In this document: positions 1-12,524 of the stretch, one piece after another
Layout of the letters: every line of letters starts with the position of its first letter
How positions within the stretch are numbered: position 1 is the stretch's first letter
Source: a virus
Virus record (IMG/VR): IMGVR_UViG_3300021963_000572
Location: 1-26,144 of that record
Length of the DNA stretch: 26,144 nt
Strand: one strand, 5' to 3'
Made by a program: the position numbers and the translations under genes
The notes under the pieces: generated by a model
Told to the model about the DNA's origin: nothing
Databases searched by the model: none
The model's input: the letters and a program-made list of their open reading frames with translations, nothing else

Positions 1-16
1 CTCATTTTAGACTATG

Positions 17-24
17 TATTTATC
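17..24 (-). promoter_or_regulatory. Late promoter-like octamer (GATAAATA)
   Basis: On the minus strand this reads GATAAATA, one base from the T4 late promoter TATAAATA that gp55-RNA polymerase recognises. The same octamer occurs in two other intergenic positions of this window (8908-8915 minus, 22076-22083 plus). It lies just past the gp23 terminator, so it would drive a minus-strand gene beyond the left edge. The target gene is not visible. Confidence 0.5.
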
Positions 25-32
25 AGATAAAG

Positions 33-58
33 AAAAAGGGCTCCTAAGAGCCCTTTTT
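33..58. terminator. Strong bidirectional intrinsic terminator downstream of gp23
   Basis: An 11-bp perfect inverted repeat (AAAAAGGGCTC / GAGCCCTTTTT) surrounds a CTAA loop. The GC-rich stem is flanked by an A-run and a T-run, so it can terminate in both directions. It begins 26 bases past the gp23 stop codon and is well placed to end the minus-strand head operon. A 12-bp palindrome at 59-70 and a weaker hairpin at 67-83 lie between it and the gene. Confidence 0.9.
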
Positions 59-84
59 GTTGTTAACAACCTTTTAAGGGTTGA

Positions 85-5970: not shown

Positions 5971-8865
5971 TTATCTCGCTAACACATTAGAACTATTTGC
6001 TCTAGTTGCGTTGATTTGTTTTCTACCAAGCTCTTCAGTTTGACTCAGAAGTTTCCCCATAAACATATTTAATGTTTCTAGATTTTTAACAACATCATCT
6101 AGAGTAGCTGCTTTACTACCAGCTGCTGCTGCTGCTGGTGCTGCTGCTGGTGCTGCTGCTGGTGCAGCAGTTCCTGCTGCCGCAGGCCTAGTTTCATTAG
6201 TTTTGGTTTCACCTGCTTTCTTTTCTTCGACTGCTTTTGGTATTGCTGCCTGTGCAGATCTAAGTTGCGGGCCAAATCCTGGTAAATTAATTTTACCTAA
6301 ATCTAATGATTTAGCTTTTGGTTCAGCATCTACAGGAGTATATTCTTCTCCCGTTTCGGGATTGATCGCTTTTTTAGGAGAAGCTACTTTTTTCATTGCA
6401 CCTTCTAGGTCGCCAAATTCAGTGTCAACATTAGCTGCTACTTTGGCCATTGCTGCTTCCAAATCGCCAAATTCTGTATCCGGATACATGTCTTCGGCAG
6501 CACGTTTCATTGCACCGGCAAGATCACCGAATTCTGTATCAACGTCTTGTGCTACTTTGGCCATAGCACCTTCTAGATCTCCAAATTCGGTATCTGGGTA
6601 CATGTCTTCGGCAGCACGTTTCATTGCTCCAGCTAGATCACCAAATTCAGTGTCAACATCAGCTGCTACTTTGACCATCGCTGCTTCCAAATCGCCAAAT
6701 TCGTCAAGTGCTGGTAATTCTTCTAGTCCGCCGGCAAAGTCTAATAATTCATTATCAAAGTCTTCAGCTAATCCTTCAAAGCTAGAACTTATTCCCGTCA
6801 TAGCACTATCAATTACCGATGTTAATTGTTCTTTAGCTTTTTCAAATTCTTCCCATGCTGAATTTAATTCTTCGTCACTGCCTTCGTTCAACATCTTATT
6901 AACTTTGGCCAATGCTTCTTCTTTCTTAGCAATCGCTTCATCTATAGATGCTAACATTTTATCAGCAGAACTGGCAGCGCCTGCGCCAGGAGCAGCACTT
7001 ACTGTAGTAGAAATATCTTTAGAAATTTTATTTAAATCTAGTGTTTCTGTAGTTGGTTCCGTACTAGCTAAATCGTTCATACCTTTAGCAAAATCAGTCA
7101 TTCCTGTTGTCATAGATTTCATTGACATGCCAACTAGTTTTTCTAAATCTTGTGGTCTTACTACACCTTCCATACCATGTAATTCAACTAGTGTACCTTT
7201 GCCCCAATTTTCAAAAATATTGCCAGTCATTTCAAGTGAGCCGCCTTGGCGTCTAGCTGCTGGAGTTGCCGTTCCTCTATCTGTTTCAGGAAGTACTCCA
7301 ATTACTTTAACTTTTAATGTTGCTTTTTCTAATGCAGTTACAGTTGCATTGGCAGCTTCACTGGCTAGTTTTGTGCCACCGCCTATTATTCCGCCTGCTG
7401 CTTCTTCTTGGCGTTTTTTCAATTGTAAGGCACCTTCGCCTTCTCTTGGTTCTACTGTTACAGGTTGTTGTCCTCGTTCTGCGGCTCGTCTAATATTTCC
7501 ACCAAGTGTACCACCAGGACCACTAACTCTATCTAATGTTTCAGCAGCAGCAACACCAGTTCTTCTTGCTGCGCCTGCTATGCTCTCTCCTTGAGCATTT
7601 TCTGCCATAGCCGCTCCGGCTACGCCTGCTCTAATTTCTTGAGCAGCTCGTTGCGCTGCTACTACGCCTTGAGTTGCTCCGCTAACTTGCCGACCTCTAG
7701 CATCTACACCTTGTCGAGACAGTTCAATTTCATTACGCACTTTGGTCAATGCTTTGCCAAAATCTTCAGTGCTAGTTAACAGTCCAGGTTTCATTGATTT
7801 AGAAACTGCCATTACACTGTCATGAAGAGCCATATTATCTTCAACATTTTTCTTCATGATTGAGCCAGCAACACCCGCGGCATCACCTAGTGTGGCTAGT
7901 CTTAATAGTGTAGGATCTCTTTGATTTTTAGCATTAGCTGCATCTGCCTGTTTACTAGCAGCCTCAGCAGCTTTAATATTTCCTTCAGATAAAAATCTCA
8001 TCTGATCGCCAGTTTTTTGCGCTGCTTCTCCCATTAATGCATATTGTGTAGCAGCTTCGTTACTGGTCAGCGTTCCTGTGGCAAACATTTCTTTTGCCAT
8101 TTGCCCCATACCTCGTGCTTCAGCTTCAGCAAACTGTTTTTGGAACGCAGCGCGAGCAGCAGCTTCTGCTTCTGCACCTTGTTCGATACCAATCAATCTT
8201 AACTTTGCTTCTACCTGCCCGTCGGCTGCTCGTTTCTTAGCTTCTTCCATCTGCTGCTCACGATTTTTACCTGTGAGTTTAGCAATCATGTCCATTTCTT
8301 TGGCCAAGGCTTGTGCGCTTTCGTATGCCTGCTTTCTTCCCTGCTCAGTATCTTTAAATGTTGTTCGCTGTGTGCCTAGTTGAACTGCTAGTACTTCATT
8401 GAGATCTTTAGCAGTATAGCCCATATTTTGTAGCTGTTTTGAAAAATCTCCTTCAAAAAATCCTTTACTTACTTTGGCGAAAGCTTCTGTACCTCTTGTA
8501 ACAGATCCACCAAGGCCTGCTAGATTTTTTCCGTTTTGTGCAACTACATCAGCAAACTCGCCGAGACTCAATCGAGACTCGTGTGCTGCTGCGGTCATTC
8601 CAATAATGTCGTTACTAAAATTTGAACCAGTTTTACTTAAGCCTCGCCATGTATTAGTGCTTTCGCTAATTGTGTCAACAAAAGAGCTAGCATTGTCTTT
8701 AACCTTCTCCATTGCCGCCTTAAGATCAGCAGTTGTTAATGTTTGACTGCCAGACTCAGTTTTTGAAGGTGTAAATCCGCCGCCACTACCACCGCCTGAG
8801 ATGCCGCGATTTTTTAAAGCATTTTCAAAGGCTTTCTCAAGTTTATTATAGTCAATGTCAGCCAT
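5971..8865 (-). CDS. Putative tail tape-measure / tail-length protein
   Basis: A 964-aa, Ala/Glu/Lys-rich, mostly helical protein. The N-terminus (about 1-45) is Gly/Ser-rich; a long helical region with many AEAA/AKE segments follows to about 460. Near residues 553-570 is GTLVELHGMEGVVRPQDLEK, of a GxPVxLHGxE type that I associate with phage tape-measure proteins. Residues 722-828 form a tandem repeat with six EFGDL motifs, then comes an Ala/Pro linker (about 890-915) and a helical C-terminus. Tape-measure proteins set tail length and are ejected ahead of the DNA; in T4 the role belongs to gp29 (590 aa). I see no clear transmembrane helix. It precedes the portal gene and is divergent from the gp26-like chaperone candidate, which supports a tail role. 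Some other large virion protein remains possible. Confidence 0.6.
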   Translation of the reverse strand: MADIDYNKLEKAFENALKNRGISGGGSGGGFTPSKTESGSQTLTTADLKAAMEKVKDNASSFVDTISESTNTWRGLSKTGSNFSNDIIGMTAAAHESRLSLGEFADVVAQNGKNLAGLGGSVTRGTEAFAKVSKGFFEGDFSKQLQNMGYTAKDLNEVLAVQLGTQRTTFKDTEQGRKQAYESAQALAKEMDMIAKLTGKNREQQMEEAKKRAADGQVEAKLRLIGIEQGAEAEAAARAAFQKQFAEAEARGMGQMAKEMFATGTLTSNEAATQYALMGEAAQKTGDQMRFLSEGNIKAAEAASKQADAANAKNQRDPTLLRLATLGDAAGVAGSIMKKNVEDNMALHDSVMAVSKSMKPGLLTSTEDFGKALTKVRNEIELSRQGVDARGRQVSGATQGVVAAQRAAQEIRAGVAGAAMAENAQGESIAGAARRTGVAAAETLDRVSGPGGTLGGNIRRAAERGQQPVTVEPREGEGALQLKKRQEEAAGGIIGGGTKLASEAANATVTALEKATLKVKVIGVLPETDRGTATPAARRQGGSLEMTGNIFENWGKGTLVELHGMEGVVRPQDLEKLVGMSMKSMTTGMTDFAKGMNDLASTEPTTETLDLNKISKDISTTVSAAPGAGAASSADKMLASIDEAIAKKEEALAKVNKMLNEGSDEELNSAWEEFEKAKEQLTSVIDSAMTGISSSFEGLAEDFDNELLDFAGGLEELPALDEFGDLEAAMVKVAADVDTEFGDLAGAMKRAAEDMYPDTEFGDLEGAMAKVAQDVDTEFGDLAGAMKRAAEDMYPDTEFGDLEAAMAKVAANVDTEFGDLEGAMKKVASPKKAINPETGEEYTPVDAEPKAKSLDLGKINLPGFGPQLRSAQAAIPKAVEEKKAGETKTNETRPAAAGTAAPAAAPAAAPAAAAAGSKAATLDDVVKNLETLNMFMGKLLSQTEELGRKQINATRANSSNVLAR
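6367..6702 (-). repeat. Coding tandem repeat, three units of 38 aa with EFGDL motifs
   Basis: Inside the tape-measure-like gene, the codons for EFGDL recur with their 5' ends at 6702, 6648, 6588, 6534, 6474 and 6420. Spacing alternates strictly 54, 60, 54, 60, 54 bases. This makes a 114-bp super-unit of two related helical modules (one of 18 aa with AKVA, one of 20 aa ending MYPDT). Synonymous changes separate the copies, so they are not a very recent duplication. Confidence 0.9.
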
Positions 8866-8925: not shown

Positions 8926-9744
8926 ATGACTGGAAATCCATTACAAAAATACTTTAGACAACCAAAGATTTACATTCAATTGCCTAGCAAAGGTCTATTT
9001 TATAAAGAAGGCACACTTGCAGGGGATCATTCTAATGTGCCAATATATGCTATGACTGGTATGGATGAAATCTTAATGAAAACGCCTGATGCTCTGTTTA
9101 ACGGTGAAGCTACTATTAAACTGATCGAAAGCTGTTGTTCATATATTAAAGATGCACATGCTGTACCTAGTTTAGACATTGACGTTCTGTTAACTGCCAT
9201 TAGAATTGCTTCTTTTGGTGAGTCTATGTCAGTTACCCACACTTGCAAAAACTGCGGAACTGAAAACGAATATGACATAGATCTTACCAAAGTCATTGAA
9301 CATTATGCAGACAAACAGTATGATAATAGGCTAGGCATAAACGATATAACTGTCAATTTTAGACCGTTAAATTATCAAGAATTAACTGAATTTAATATGG
9401 AAAATTTTAAATTACAACGGTTACTTGGACAACTGGCCAATGTCAGTGACGACGAAAAACAAAAACATATTGATGCTGTCTATGAAAAATTAGGTCAAAT
9501 ACAAGCTCAATTGTTTTTATTAAGCATTGAATCAGTGCAAACTCCGGACACACTAGTATCTGAAAGAGATCATATTAGAGAATGGTTACTTAATTCTAAT
9601 AGAGATGATTATAGCAAGATAAAAGATCATCTAGAAAAAACCAAAGAGGCTTGGTCAATGCCCAATCATCAAGTTAAATGTTCTAATTGCGGAACAGAAG
9701 CTAGTATTGAAGTAGGATTGGATCAATCAAATTTTTTCGTTTAA
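8926..9744 (+). CDS. gp26-like baseplate hub assembly protein / tail chaperone
   Basis: A 272-aa protein of the T4 baseplate-protein family that aquatic T4-like phages list as gp26. It begins with IYIQLPSKGLFYKEGT (residues 15-30) and YAMTGMDEILMKTPDALFNG (41-60), then SFGESM. Two zinc-ribbon half-sites are visible, CKNCG at 107-111 and CSNCG at 252-256. In T4, genes 26 and 51 are needed to build the central hub. It has its own late promoter at 8890-8897 and a weak GAG ribosome site. The last codons, for NFFV, contain a -1 slippery heptamer at 9729-9735 that opens into the 9735-9971 frame. This suggests a short form of 272 aa and a fused form of 348 aa, like lambda gpG and gpGT. Family assignment is good; which T4 number applies is less certain. 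Confidence 0.8.
   Translation: MTGNPLQKYFRQPKIYIQLPSKGLFYKEGTLAGDHSNVPIYAMTGMDEILMKTPDALFNGEATIKLIESCCSYIKDAHAVPSLDIDVLLTAIRIASFGESMSVTHTCKNCGTENEYDIDLTKVIEHYADKQYDNRLGINDITVNFRPLNYQELTEFNMENFKLQRLLGQLANVSDDEKQKHIDAVYEKLGQIQAQLFLLSIESVQTPDTLVSERDHIREWLLNSNRDDYSKIKDHLEKTKEAWSMPNHQVKCSNCGTEASIEVGLDQSNFFV
9729..9735 (+). promoter_or_regulatory. Candidate -1 ribosomal frameshift site (A AAT TTT)
   Basis: In the gp26-like frame the bases read A AAT TTT, a perfect X XXY YYZ slippery heptamer, 6 bases before the in-frame TAA. A -1 slip moves both tRNAs onto AAA and TTT and continues into an open frame of 78 more codons. A purine-rich AGTAGGA (9711-9717) lies about 12 bases upstream, where Shine-Dalgarno-like stimulators sit in dnaX-type sites. 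I see no strong downstream hairpin. Confidence 0.65.
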
Positions 9745-9971
9745 GGTTACTGTCACTCGATAACTCTGGCATTGCTAACTATATTCAAAATTTAGACAAA
9801 GAATCAAAACAGATCAAAGACGAAATTTTTAGAATTAGCTGGTATATGCGAGGAGGTGTATCTAGTGAATCTCTGCTGCATTCATACTCATACGAAGATC
9901 GAATGATTATGAATGAAATTATCAAAGATAATATTGAAATTACTAAAAATTCTAGATTACCACTTATTTAG
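9735..9971 (+). CDS. Frameshift-encoded extension of the gp26-like protein (gp51-like small ORF)
   Basis: The frame lies -1 relative to the gp26-like gene and is open from 9711 to the TAG at 9969-9971. After a slip at 9729-9735 it adds 78 residues beginning FRLRLLSLDNSGIANYIQ. It continues with ISWYMRGG, the HSYSYEDRMIMNEIIKDNIE helix and KNSRLPLI. This matches the style of small proteins annotated as gp51 in aquatic T4-like phages, and of the second-frame domains of tail-assembly chaperones. No ATG, GTG or TTG precedes the conserved part; the first ATG is the Met of WYMRGG, mid-domain. It must therefore be reached by frameshifting, or by a rare start such as ATT at 9717. Its end overlaps the convergent 451-aa gene by 8 bases. 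Coding reality is strong; the mechanism is inferred. Confidence 0.7.
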   Translation, partial: FRLRLLSLDNSGIANYIQNLDKESKQIKDEIFRISWYMRGGVSSESLLHSYSYEDRMIMNEIIKDNIEITKNSRLPLI

Positions 9972-11319
9972 GATTGTATCTTGTGTAATCTCGTCCTGGA
10001 CGTTTAGGAATTCCTGCTGTTGGATCTGGTCTACCTAATAAATTAGCTCTATTTTTAATATCATCAAGTGTTGAGTTCATGACATCTTGATATCCTTCTG
10101 CATCAGTTATCTGAACTCCGTCTACATATATTATTTTAGGATTTTGTGGATTGCGTTGAACTTTCATAGCAACACCATACTTGTCGTCTGGTGATGTCGC
10201 AGAAGCAGGATCGTCAGGATCAGCTGCTGGCGGCTTAGGACCTGGCAATATTTGAGGAGCAGTTACTCCTAGCTTTTCTCCAGCAGCTTCAAGTCCTGCA
10301 TTTAAAATCCCAATGGCCGTATCAGTAGTCATTCCCAACCAATCTCTTAAAGTTCTAACAGGCAAATCAAGGAAACCTCCTGTTAGATAAGAAGCAAGTT
10401 TTTGCGCTTCTGGCATTTGAACAAATGTTGTAAATGCTATTTTTCTAGCAGGACTACCGTCAAATAATTTAGCTGCTGCCTGCACAGTTCCGCCAGGTAA
10501 TTTACCTACTAGTTCGGTAATTGCTGCCAACTGTCTACCTCCAACAGCATACCCGGCTCCTTTGCCTAATACTCCACCTACTATTTTAAAGAATGCACCA
10601 ACTTTATTAAGTAGACCAAATTGAACTGCTATTACTGCCGAAGCTTCTCCTAATAAAGCTATACGTTCTCTTTGAAGAAGCTCGTAGGCTTCTTCTGGAC
10701 CAGCATCACCAAATTTTGTTGTTTTGTCGCCGTCTAGGCAAGCCTGATATTCAATTTCTAACAGTTTGTATTTTTCGTACCACTCTCTTAAATAGTTAGC
10801 GGTAAACATTAAACTAACTGCTTCTAGCGCATATCTTGGAAGATTGCTTAAACCAGTTTCAGCAGCTTTTTTAGCTTTGGCTTTACGTTCTTCGTAACGC
10901 TTTTTAGCTGCTGCTCGACCTTCGGGGGTCCTTGCATTACGCATTTCTCGATCGTATTTTTCTTTGGCTTTTCGTCTAGCTTCTCTGTGTTTTTTAATCA
11001 CATGCTCTCGAATCCAATTACCTCCCCATTTTTTAGCTGCATCAGGGAATAACCTTGCTACTGCTCGACGACCTAATCTAGCTAGACCAGGAGTGAATAA
11101 TAGAGCTGCATCTATAAAAAGTTCGCCCCATTGTTCTTCTGTAACTGACTCAGGATCATCGCCGTATTGCTTGATAAAATTGTAAATGTCATAGGCACCC
11201 CAAGCAGCCATACCTACAGAAATTGCACTCACAATAGTGCCAATACCAATTCCTGCAATAACAGCAGCAGGTGCTACTTCATTAATCTGTTTTCTTTCGA
11301 GAATTTCGTAAACTTTCAT
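9964..11319 (-). CDS. Unknown 451-aa protein, candidate internal (co-ejected) head protein
   Basis: I do not recognise a family. The N-terminus MKVYEILERKQINE is followed by VAP. It resembles the T4 capsid-targeting sequence (MKTYQEFIAE in T4 internal proteins), and INE at 12-14 (or ILE at 6-8) would be a gp21 cleavage site. Next comes a long hydrophobic stretch (about residues 16-48) able to span a membrane, and a very basic helical region (about 110-155) rich in Arg, Lys and Ala. A second hydrophobic/Gly-rich stretch (about 226-262) follows, then a Pro/Asp linker and a basic C-terminus. No enzyme motif is evident. It lies alone between the hub-chaperone gene and the structured intergenic region, with no clear Shine-Dalgarno. 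The reading as a packaged, DNA-binding, membrane-active ejection protein is inference. Confidence 0.75.
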   Translation of the reverse strand: MKVYEILERKQINEVAPAAVIAGIGIGTIVSAISVGMAAWGAYDIYNFIKQYGDDPESVTEEQWGELFIDAALLFTPGLARLGRRAVARLFPDAAKKWGGNWIREHVIKKHREARRKAKEKYDREMRNARTPEGRAAAKKRYEERKAKAKKAAETGLSNLPRYALEAVSLMFTANYLREWYEKYKLLEIEYQACLDGDKTTKFGDAGPEEAYELLQRERIALLGEASAVIAVQFGLLNKVGAFFKIVGGVLGKGAGYAVGGRQLAAITELVGKLPGGTVQAAAKLFDGSPARKIAFTTFVQMPEAQKLASYLTGGFLDLPVRTLRDWLGMTTDTAIGILNAGLEAAGEKLGVTAPQILPGPKPPAADPDDPASATSPDDKYGVAMKVQRNPQNPKIIYVDGVQITDAEGYQDVMNSTLDDIKNRANLLGRPDPTAGIPKRPGRDYTRYNPK

Positions 11320-11824: not shown

Positions 11825-12268
11825 TTAACCGTTTGATTTTGCCTGTGCTTGTTCTAGTAATCGCTGCCTGAGTATATTTGATCCGCCAATTCTACAGTTG
11901 ATAATACCGTTATAGTATTCATCTGTTTCAAGTACACGACGTTCAAACTGTTCTCTAGCCTCTAGATATGACATTTCTGCCTTACTCTTACAGTAATAAA
12001 GTATTTCTCTAGTGAAATTTTCTGGACCTAATTGTGCTACATCTGCCTGTAGTCTATCACTTGACCCCCAATAGTCACGCCAGTCGCTTTCAACAACTGA
12101 ACGTCTTTTGAGTTTTTTGCCTTTGAGAGGTGGCCGTGTTTTTTTAAATTGGGCTAATTTTTTGCCTATATACTTTTGTCCAGTGGTGAGATTTGTAATA
12201 AGATATACAAAACCTATGTAGCCTTCGGGTATGTCTTCTACTATTTGATCTTGATATTTCCACAACAT
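11825..12268 (-). CDS. GIY-YIG-like nuclease-domain protein
   Basis: A 147-aa protein with a GIY-YIG-type N-terminus: GFVYLITN at 19-26 and KYIGKK at 32-37. A basic loop (about 42-56), SDWRDYWGSS (61-70), NFTREIL (84-90) and YLEAREQFERRVL (101-113) with likely catalytic Glu103 follow, then NGIINCRIGG. Similar small proteins occur in many aquatic T4-like phages and are usually called putative endonucleases. GIY-YIG proteins cut DNA, in homing, repair or restriction. It starts 4 bases after the 83-aa gene, as last member of the gp55-47-46 run, so it is expressed early. There is no adjacent intron core or extra DNA-binding domain, so it may be a stand-alone nuclease rather than an intron homing enzyme. 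Its activity is inferred. Confidence 0.75.
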   Translation of the reverse strand: MLWKYQDQIVEDIPEGYIGFVYLITNLTTGQKYIGKKLAQFKKTRPPLKGKKLKRRSVVESDWRDYWGSSDRLQADVAQLGPENFTREILYYCKSKAEMSYLEAREQFERRVLETDEYYNGIINCRIGGSNILRQRLLEQAQAKSNG

Positions 12269-12272
12269 GCAC

Positions 12273-12524
12273 TTAGTTAGTGTTGTTGTCGTCTTCTGCC
12301 TGTCTTTTTTGGTTTTCTTTGTACTTGGGACTTTTTACTTTTGGTTTAGTAACTCTTACTGCCTGAATTTCCTTGCGCCTATCACTGGCCAAATGCCTCA
12401 TATCACTTAATGCCTTGCGTACACGCATGCCGGCTGCGTGAGTTTCTTTAGATTCCCATTCTTGATTTAATCTAAAGTATTCACGGAATAATTCTACTAA
12501 CCGGTCATGTGCTGTTTTTGTCAT
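12273..12524 (-). CDS. Small basic protein of unknown function in the gp46/47 operon
   Basis: An 83-aa, strongly basic, mostly helical protein. It starts MTKTAHDRLVELFREYFRLN and has a second charged helix with RVRKALSDMRHLASDRRKEI. The C-terminus has a Lys-rich KPKVKSPKYKENQKRQ and an Asp/Asn end. It has no recognised domain. Its ATG overlaps the gp46 stop by 4 bases (ATGA), so it is translationally coupled to gp46, and the GIY-YIG gene follows closely. This suggests a nucleic-acid-binding helper of DNA metabolism, but that rests only on charge and position. Confidence 0.7.
   Translation of the reverse strand: MTKTAHDRLVELFREYFRLNQEWESKETHAAGMRVRKALSDMRHLASDRRKEIQAVRVTKPKVKSPKYKENQKRQAEDDNNTN

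Follow-up and report, generated by a model that had tools for sequence, protein, structure and literature searches.

Predicted −1 frameshifting at a conserved T TTT TTC site joins gp26- and gp51-like chaperone domains in a T4-type phage gene

Tail assembly chaperones (TACs) produced by −1 frameshifting are known from lambda gpG/gpGT and other phages (Xu, Hendrix and Duda 2004, as cited in PMC5009743). The T4 proteins gp26 and gp51 were named tail assembly chaperones by Vladimirov, Gautam and Davidson 2022 (Virology 566:9-15), according to PMC10885494 and PMC12846349, and PMC12846349, citing the same study, mentions poly-T −1 frameshift signals in the TAC-N genes of T4-like phages. The locus of the PAK_P1 type belongs to a kind described as a −1 frameshift TAC in PMC12846349. 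The frameshift-made TAC is therefore a kind already known. The initial annotation of the DNA studied here had offered a possible union of T4 gp26/gp51 with the tail chaperones as new; judging from these citing papers, that link had been published. What this work adds is the invariant T TTT TTC in the aquatic and jumbo-phage group, the association of this site with a missing second gene, and a candidate hairpin. A literature search on these three points, in which Vladimirov et al. 2022 was represented by the papers citing it, found no paper.

Gene layout and proposed products

The window, i.e., the whole stretch of 26,144 bases that was analysed (an IMG/VR virus record), contains one PF12322 gene. 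This gp26-like ORF (8926–9744, + strand) encodes a short product of 272 aa, the TAC-N. It scored 80.8 bits against PF12322 (cut-off 24.5), which places it in the family, and 87 bits against phrog_150 (E 2.9e-24). The AlphaFold2 model of the protein had a pLDDT of 87, and searches of the PDB with gp26 by sequence and by fold gave no significant match. The 3′ codons of the ORF are TCA AAT TTT TTC GTT TAA, with the zero-frame stop TAA at 9742–9744 (+). The −1 frame is shut on the upstream side by a stop at 9708–9710 (+), and no ATG, GTG or TTG is present between this stop and the encoded domain. The initial annotation correctly described this frame as open to 9971, closed at 9708–9710 and without a start codon, but its length of 78 codons was revised: 77 sense codons are read from the slip (9738–9968), followed by a stop at 9969–9971. 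This extension (9738–9971, +) would form the C-terminal domain of a 348-aa fusion, the TAC-NC.

Very probably, 8926–9971 is one gene that provides both tail assembly chaperones of a T4-type myophage via a −1 frameshift. Most ribosomes would terminate at 9742 and release gp26 (TAC-N, 272 aa). When a ribosome slips one base backward from T TTT TTC, both tRNA-Phe re-pair on TTT TTT. In a minority of ribosomes the two tRNA-Phe on TTT TTC would move back onto TTT TTT in this way, the next codon would be 9738–9740 (Arg), and translation to 9968 would yield the 348-aa TAC-NC carrying a gp51-type C-terminal helical domain. The peptides predicted at the gp26 end are CSNCGTEASIEVGLDQSNFFR for the fusion (across the junction) and CSNCGTEASIEVGLDQSNFFV for the short form. 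By analogy with lambda gpG/gpGT, both forms may cover the tape measure protein and bring in subunits of the tail tube. The occurrence of slippage, its efficiency and the chaperone role are what we infer here, the last because of the published gp26/gp51 assignment and the lambda analogy (PMC5009743).

The divergent neighbour (5971–8865, − strand, 964 aa) is, by its position, a putative tape measure gene. Searches with PF and phrog profiles found no tape measure family match for it, and the RaK2 homologue at this position is annotated as similar to tape measure protein. In the window, as in most jumbo phages, gp26 has a large divergent structural gene as its neighbour; the neighbour is of another kind in Vibrio 2.275, XacN1 and Atu_ph07. 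The comparative data strongly support a −1 frameshift and a lambda G/GT-like layout, as proposed in the initial annotation, with a short protein, an extension lacking a start and a large divergent structural gene alongside.

On the other side, a gene for a 451-aa protein without family match (9964–11319, −) is convergent with the −1 extension and overlaps its final 8 bases. Further downstream, a SegE-type GIY-YIG endonuclease gene (11825–12268, −; PF19835), with homing endonuclease relatives, adjoins an SbcC/SbcD pair. Between the endonuclease and SbcC lies a gene for an 83-aa protein with a weak match to PF07432, histone H1-like Hc1 (12273–12524, −).

Even with a real frameshift, the two proteins could serve in hub assembly instead of as chaperones of the tape measure. 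The family names in Pfam and PHROGs and the T4 annotation point to such a role, and gp26/gp51 have traditionally been so named. However, a short and a long product made by frameshifting is the TAC layout, and the T4 proteins were named TACs by Vladimirov et al. 2022 (via PMC10885494 and PMC12846349). We consider an exclusive hub function unlikely, and one role need not preclude the other.

The slippery site and its distribution

Two overlapping heptamers are in phase in the window, A AAT TTT (9729–9735, +) and T TTT TTC (9732–9738, +). The former, which the initial annotation had named as the slip site, is present as described, in phase and 6 nt before the stop. The relatives comprised 83 distinct gp26-like genes (the window gene and genes of viral contigs, about 43–78% protein identity), whose kinship means that the counts carry no simple probability. 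TTTTTTCG, with C as the third codon base, was found in 82 of the 83 genes, 4, 10 or 13 nt upstream of the gp26 stop. The alignment across relatives suggested in the initial annotation thus gave a heptamer conserved in the same frame, and this heptamer was T TTT TTC (in phase in 82/82 readable relatives). The 83rd gene (L073, IMGVR_UViG_3300006114_000148) has an in-frame stop well upstream, either a sequencing error or a real nonsense codon, with slip region and −1 domain intact.

The bases 5′ of T TTT TTC differed among relatives, with AAG TTT (A AGT TTT) and TAA TTT (T AAT TTT) both found. In the T AAT TTT relatives a −1 frame TAA lies directly before TTT TTT, so that the −1 frame can be entered only via a slip at TTT TTC. 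A AAT TTT was rejected as the operative heptamer, since it varies and a slip there in the T AAT TTT relatives would read a stop. The zero-frame wobble bases within the heptamer were invariant across relatives; in the same genes AAC/AGC account for about one third, and TTC for about 18%, of the respective codons. The final C of the heptamer is not independent evidence because the Arg codon of the −1 frame also fixes it.

The same site was looked at in cultured phages. Fifteen jumbo-phage records with gp26 homologues about 24–31% identical to that of the window all had a slippery site (15/15, with PAC2/PA5oct and CBB/GAP32 being near duplicates). It was T TTT TTC in 121Q, PAC2, PA5oct, Atu_ph07, RaK2, CBB, GAP32, SCTP-2, Vibrio 2.275, Phosso, XaC1, Munch and Kaldavass, and T TTT TTT in CM1 and XacN1, the phase in XacN1 being read from the junction sequence. 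The −1 frame was 70–77 codons long in the records where it was displayed. T TTT TTC or T TTT TTT was also present at the end of the gp26 homologue in the cyanophages P-SSM2 and S-PM2 and in HTVC008M, Cr30, phiW-14, KVP40 and Aeh1. The phrog_150 profile was split across two frames in P-SSM2, S-PM2, HTVC008M, Cr30 and Aeh1, whereas its match was continuous in T4 gp51, in which both parts are fused. Altogether the arrangement recurs in 82 different environmental genes and in over 20 genomes of cultured phages.

In T4, RB49 and Acj133 the short gene has no slippery run and a full-length gp51 is encoded separately; CP220 likewise has two genes, with no slippery site in the short one. Only the single gene was found in the window record and in 17 further related genomes or large contigs, of which the environmental records may be fragments; the window record holds no long form as its own gene in T4 style. 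The slippery site and the missing second gene co-occur in every phage examined except PAU. The PF12322 gene of Sphingomonas phage PAU (L191) lacks the T-run, and its −1 frame shuts at once. Its +1 frame after the gp26-like stop is open for about 70 codons with its own ATG, a departure from the −1 pattern. The Microcystis phage matches had no gp26 by PF12322 and phrog_150.

The −1 domain and its RNA context

The domain was in the −1 frame in every relative holding both parts. From the slip, the frame was exactly 77 codons long in 77 of the 82 relatives, and two of the other five end at contig ends. The pN/pS was 0.11 in the −1 frame and 1.26 and 2.84 in the other two (49 pairs, 78–97% identity), and both alternative frames were interrupted by stops in every sequence. 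These values indicate strong purifying selection on the −1 domain, which bears out the coding constraint that the initial annotation had proposed to look for in the second frame. Because the −1 placement is universal, the length is 77 codons in 77/82 and the pN/pS is 0.11, the arrangement lies far beyond chance.

In an alignment of 58 sequences, FFR, W37, M39-G41, R57 and N67 were invariant, and conservation set in at the slip site itself (FFR). The AlphaFold2 model of the domain was confident and all-helical (pLDDT 91.7). Profile comparison (hhalign) of the jumbo-phage −1 profile with the cyanophage −1 domains and gp51 C-termini gave an E of 1.3e-5 and a probability of 80.6; with the window clade alone, whose profile is too shallow, the match was weak (E 0.042). 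Residues 196–245 of T4 gp51 matched the P-SSM2 −1 frame with an E of 0.0036. By these comparisons the −1 domain is a homologue of the gp51 C-terminal domain, and not a separate new domain. Frame layout, conserved site, coding selection and gp51 homology are all seen directly in the sequences.

A PDB fold search with the −1 domain gave no significant match and no tie to a solved chaperone structure. A search of viral structures returned small uncharacterised phage proteins, including D4N451 of PAK_P1, a weak match (TM 0.63, rmsd 1.6, Foldseek probability 0.30). In PAK_P1 a 64-aa hypothetical protein sits between the annotated tail assembly chaperone and the tape measure; from length and order, D4N451 is probably this protein, and the protein is probably a TAC-C.

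The second frame might be translated as a separate small protein, by reinitiation at the gp26 stop or from a non-standard start, with no fusion made. In 121Q, Atu_ph07, Phosso and contigs L021, L026 and L139 a −1 frame ATG overlaps or just precedes the gp26 stop, and the annotation of 121Q calls the second frame as a separate gene. In the window and roughly half of the relatives, the first 20 codons of this frame contain no ATG, GTG or TTG, and for these an independent start codon was rejected. RaK2 and PAC2 also lack a start codon. Moreover, conservation begins at FFR, a coupled start would leave the invariant T TTT TTC unexplained, and T4 gp51 fuses both parts. These results make a separate protein very improbable and favour the frameshift fusion.

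Folding of the RNA behind the heptamer was compared with shuffled sequences. Family-wide, the 60 nt from 5 nt past the heptamer formed more stable folds than shuffled sequences did (mean z −1.69, with 43% below −2), while windows inside gp26 mostly lacked excess folding (means +0.12 to −0.48). The RNAalifold consensus fold after the heptamer had zero pairs. A register scan found a stem of +12..23 with +50..61 in a subset of relatives. Pairing in this register was stronger within a sequence than between different sequences, as 15 of 77 reached at least 10 pairs with 3.1 expected. Covariation was 0.33, compared with 0.19 after shuffling and no more than 0.17 after sliding. Because these sequences also served to find the stem, its support is moderate. 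No stem could be recognised downstream of the heptamer in the window itself. Eight contigs (L050, L054, L055, L061, L069, L076, L079 and L149) have a strong stem of 11–14 bp, AGCCUAAUUAG... with ...CUAGUUAGGCU, located 12 to 62 nt past the heptamer start and beginning 5 nt after the heptamer. The position of the stem is kept with different bases in other clades. Upstream, a GGA (9720–9722, +; 9 nt before the heptamer) could be a weak internal Shine-Dalgarno element, a reading confounded with the protein in the window clade; P-SSM2 and S-PM2 have GGAGGG at this position.

Alternatively, it might be RNA polymerase, and not the ribosome, that slips on the T run and so joins the two frames. The run is the kind of sequence required, and seven or eight T-rich positions are found in XacN1, CM1, HTVC008M and Cr30. 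However, for transcriptional slippage to be efficient, six T and then a C make a short run, and longer runs hardly ever occur at this site. Its phase always matches a tandem-slip heptamer, and the excess RNA structure at 5 nt spacing fits a ribosomal stimulator. Polymerase slippage is accordingly a very doubtful source of the fusion compared with ribosomal −1 frameshifting. A sequencing error or a decayed gene, for which nothing speaks beyond the single window taken alone, has a negligible probability and is already refuted by the matching environmental and cultured genes and by the purifying selection in the −1 frame.

Origin and comparison with known systems

Given the distribution of the site and of the second gene among phages, it is likely that T TTT TTY −1 frameshifting is ancestral and near-universal for gp26/gp51 in the T4 superfamily (cyanophages, SAR11 phage, jumbo phages, KVP40 and Aeh1). 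T4 and its near relatives, and separately the Campylobacter phages, would have swapped in a second fused gene and lost the site, and many lineages would have gained a stimulatory hairpin 5 nt downstream of the heptamer. On this view two separate genes, as in T4, would be exceptional for T4-type phages, and T4 gp51 would amount to a frameshift product that has become hard-wired. Several jumbo-phage records leave the C-terminal half without annotation or label it "hypothetical protein", and the long chaperone is thus absent from databases. Comparing phages that have the shift with phages that lack it is a natural way to study how tail assembly sets the proportion of short to long form.

The window gene shares with T4 gp26/gp51 the N-domain family (PF12322, phrog_150) and the C-terminal domain of gp51. 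It differs from the T4, RB49 and Acj133 arrangement, in which two genes are present and the short one has no slippery site, in being one gene with a −1 frame. The likeness to lambda gpG/gpGT drawn here is one of layout, and the heptamer is another one. In lambda, G/GT lies upstream of the tape measure on the same strand, whereas the window gene is divergent from the putative tape measure gene. The TACs of Vandenendeviridae and Andersonviridae (phage Adele, PAK_P1; PMC12846349) likewise carry a poly-T site where TAC-N ends and have a C-domain in the −1 frame. Their TAC-N is much shorter (123 aa in PAK_P1), their motif is GTTTTT, and TAC and tape measure follow each other in this order on one strand.
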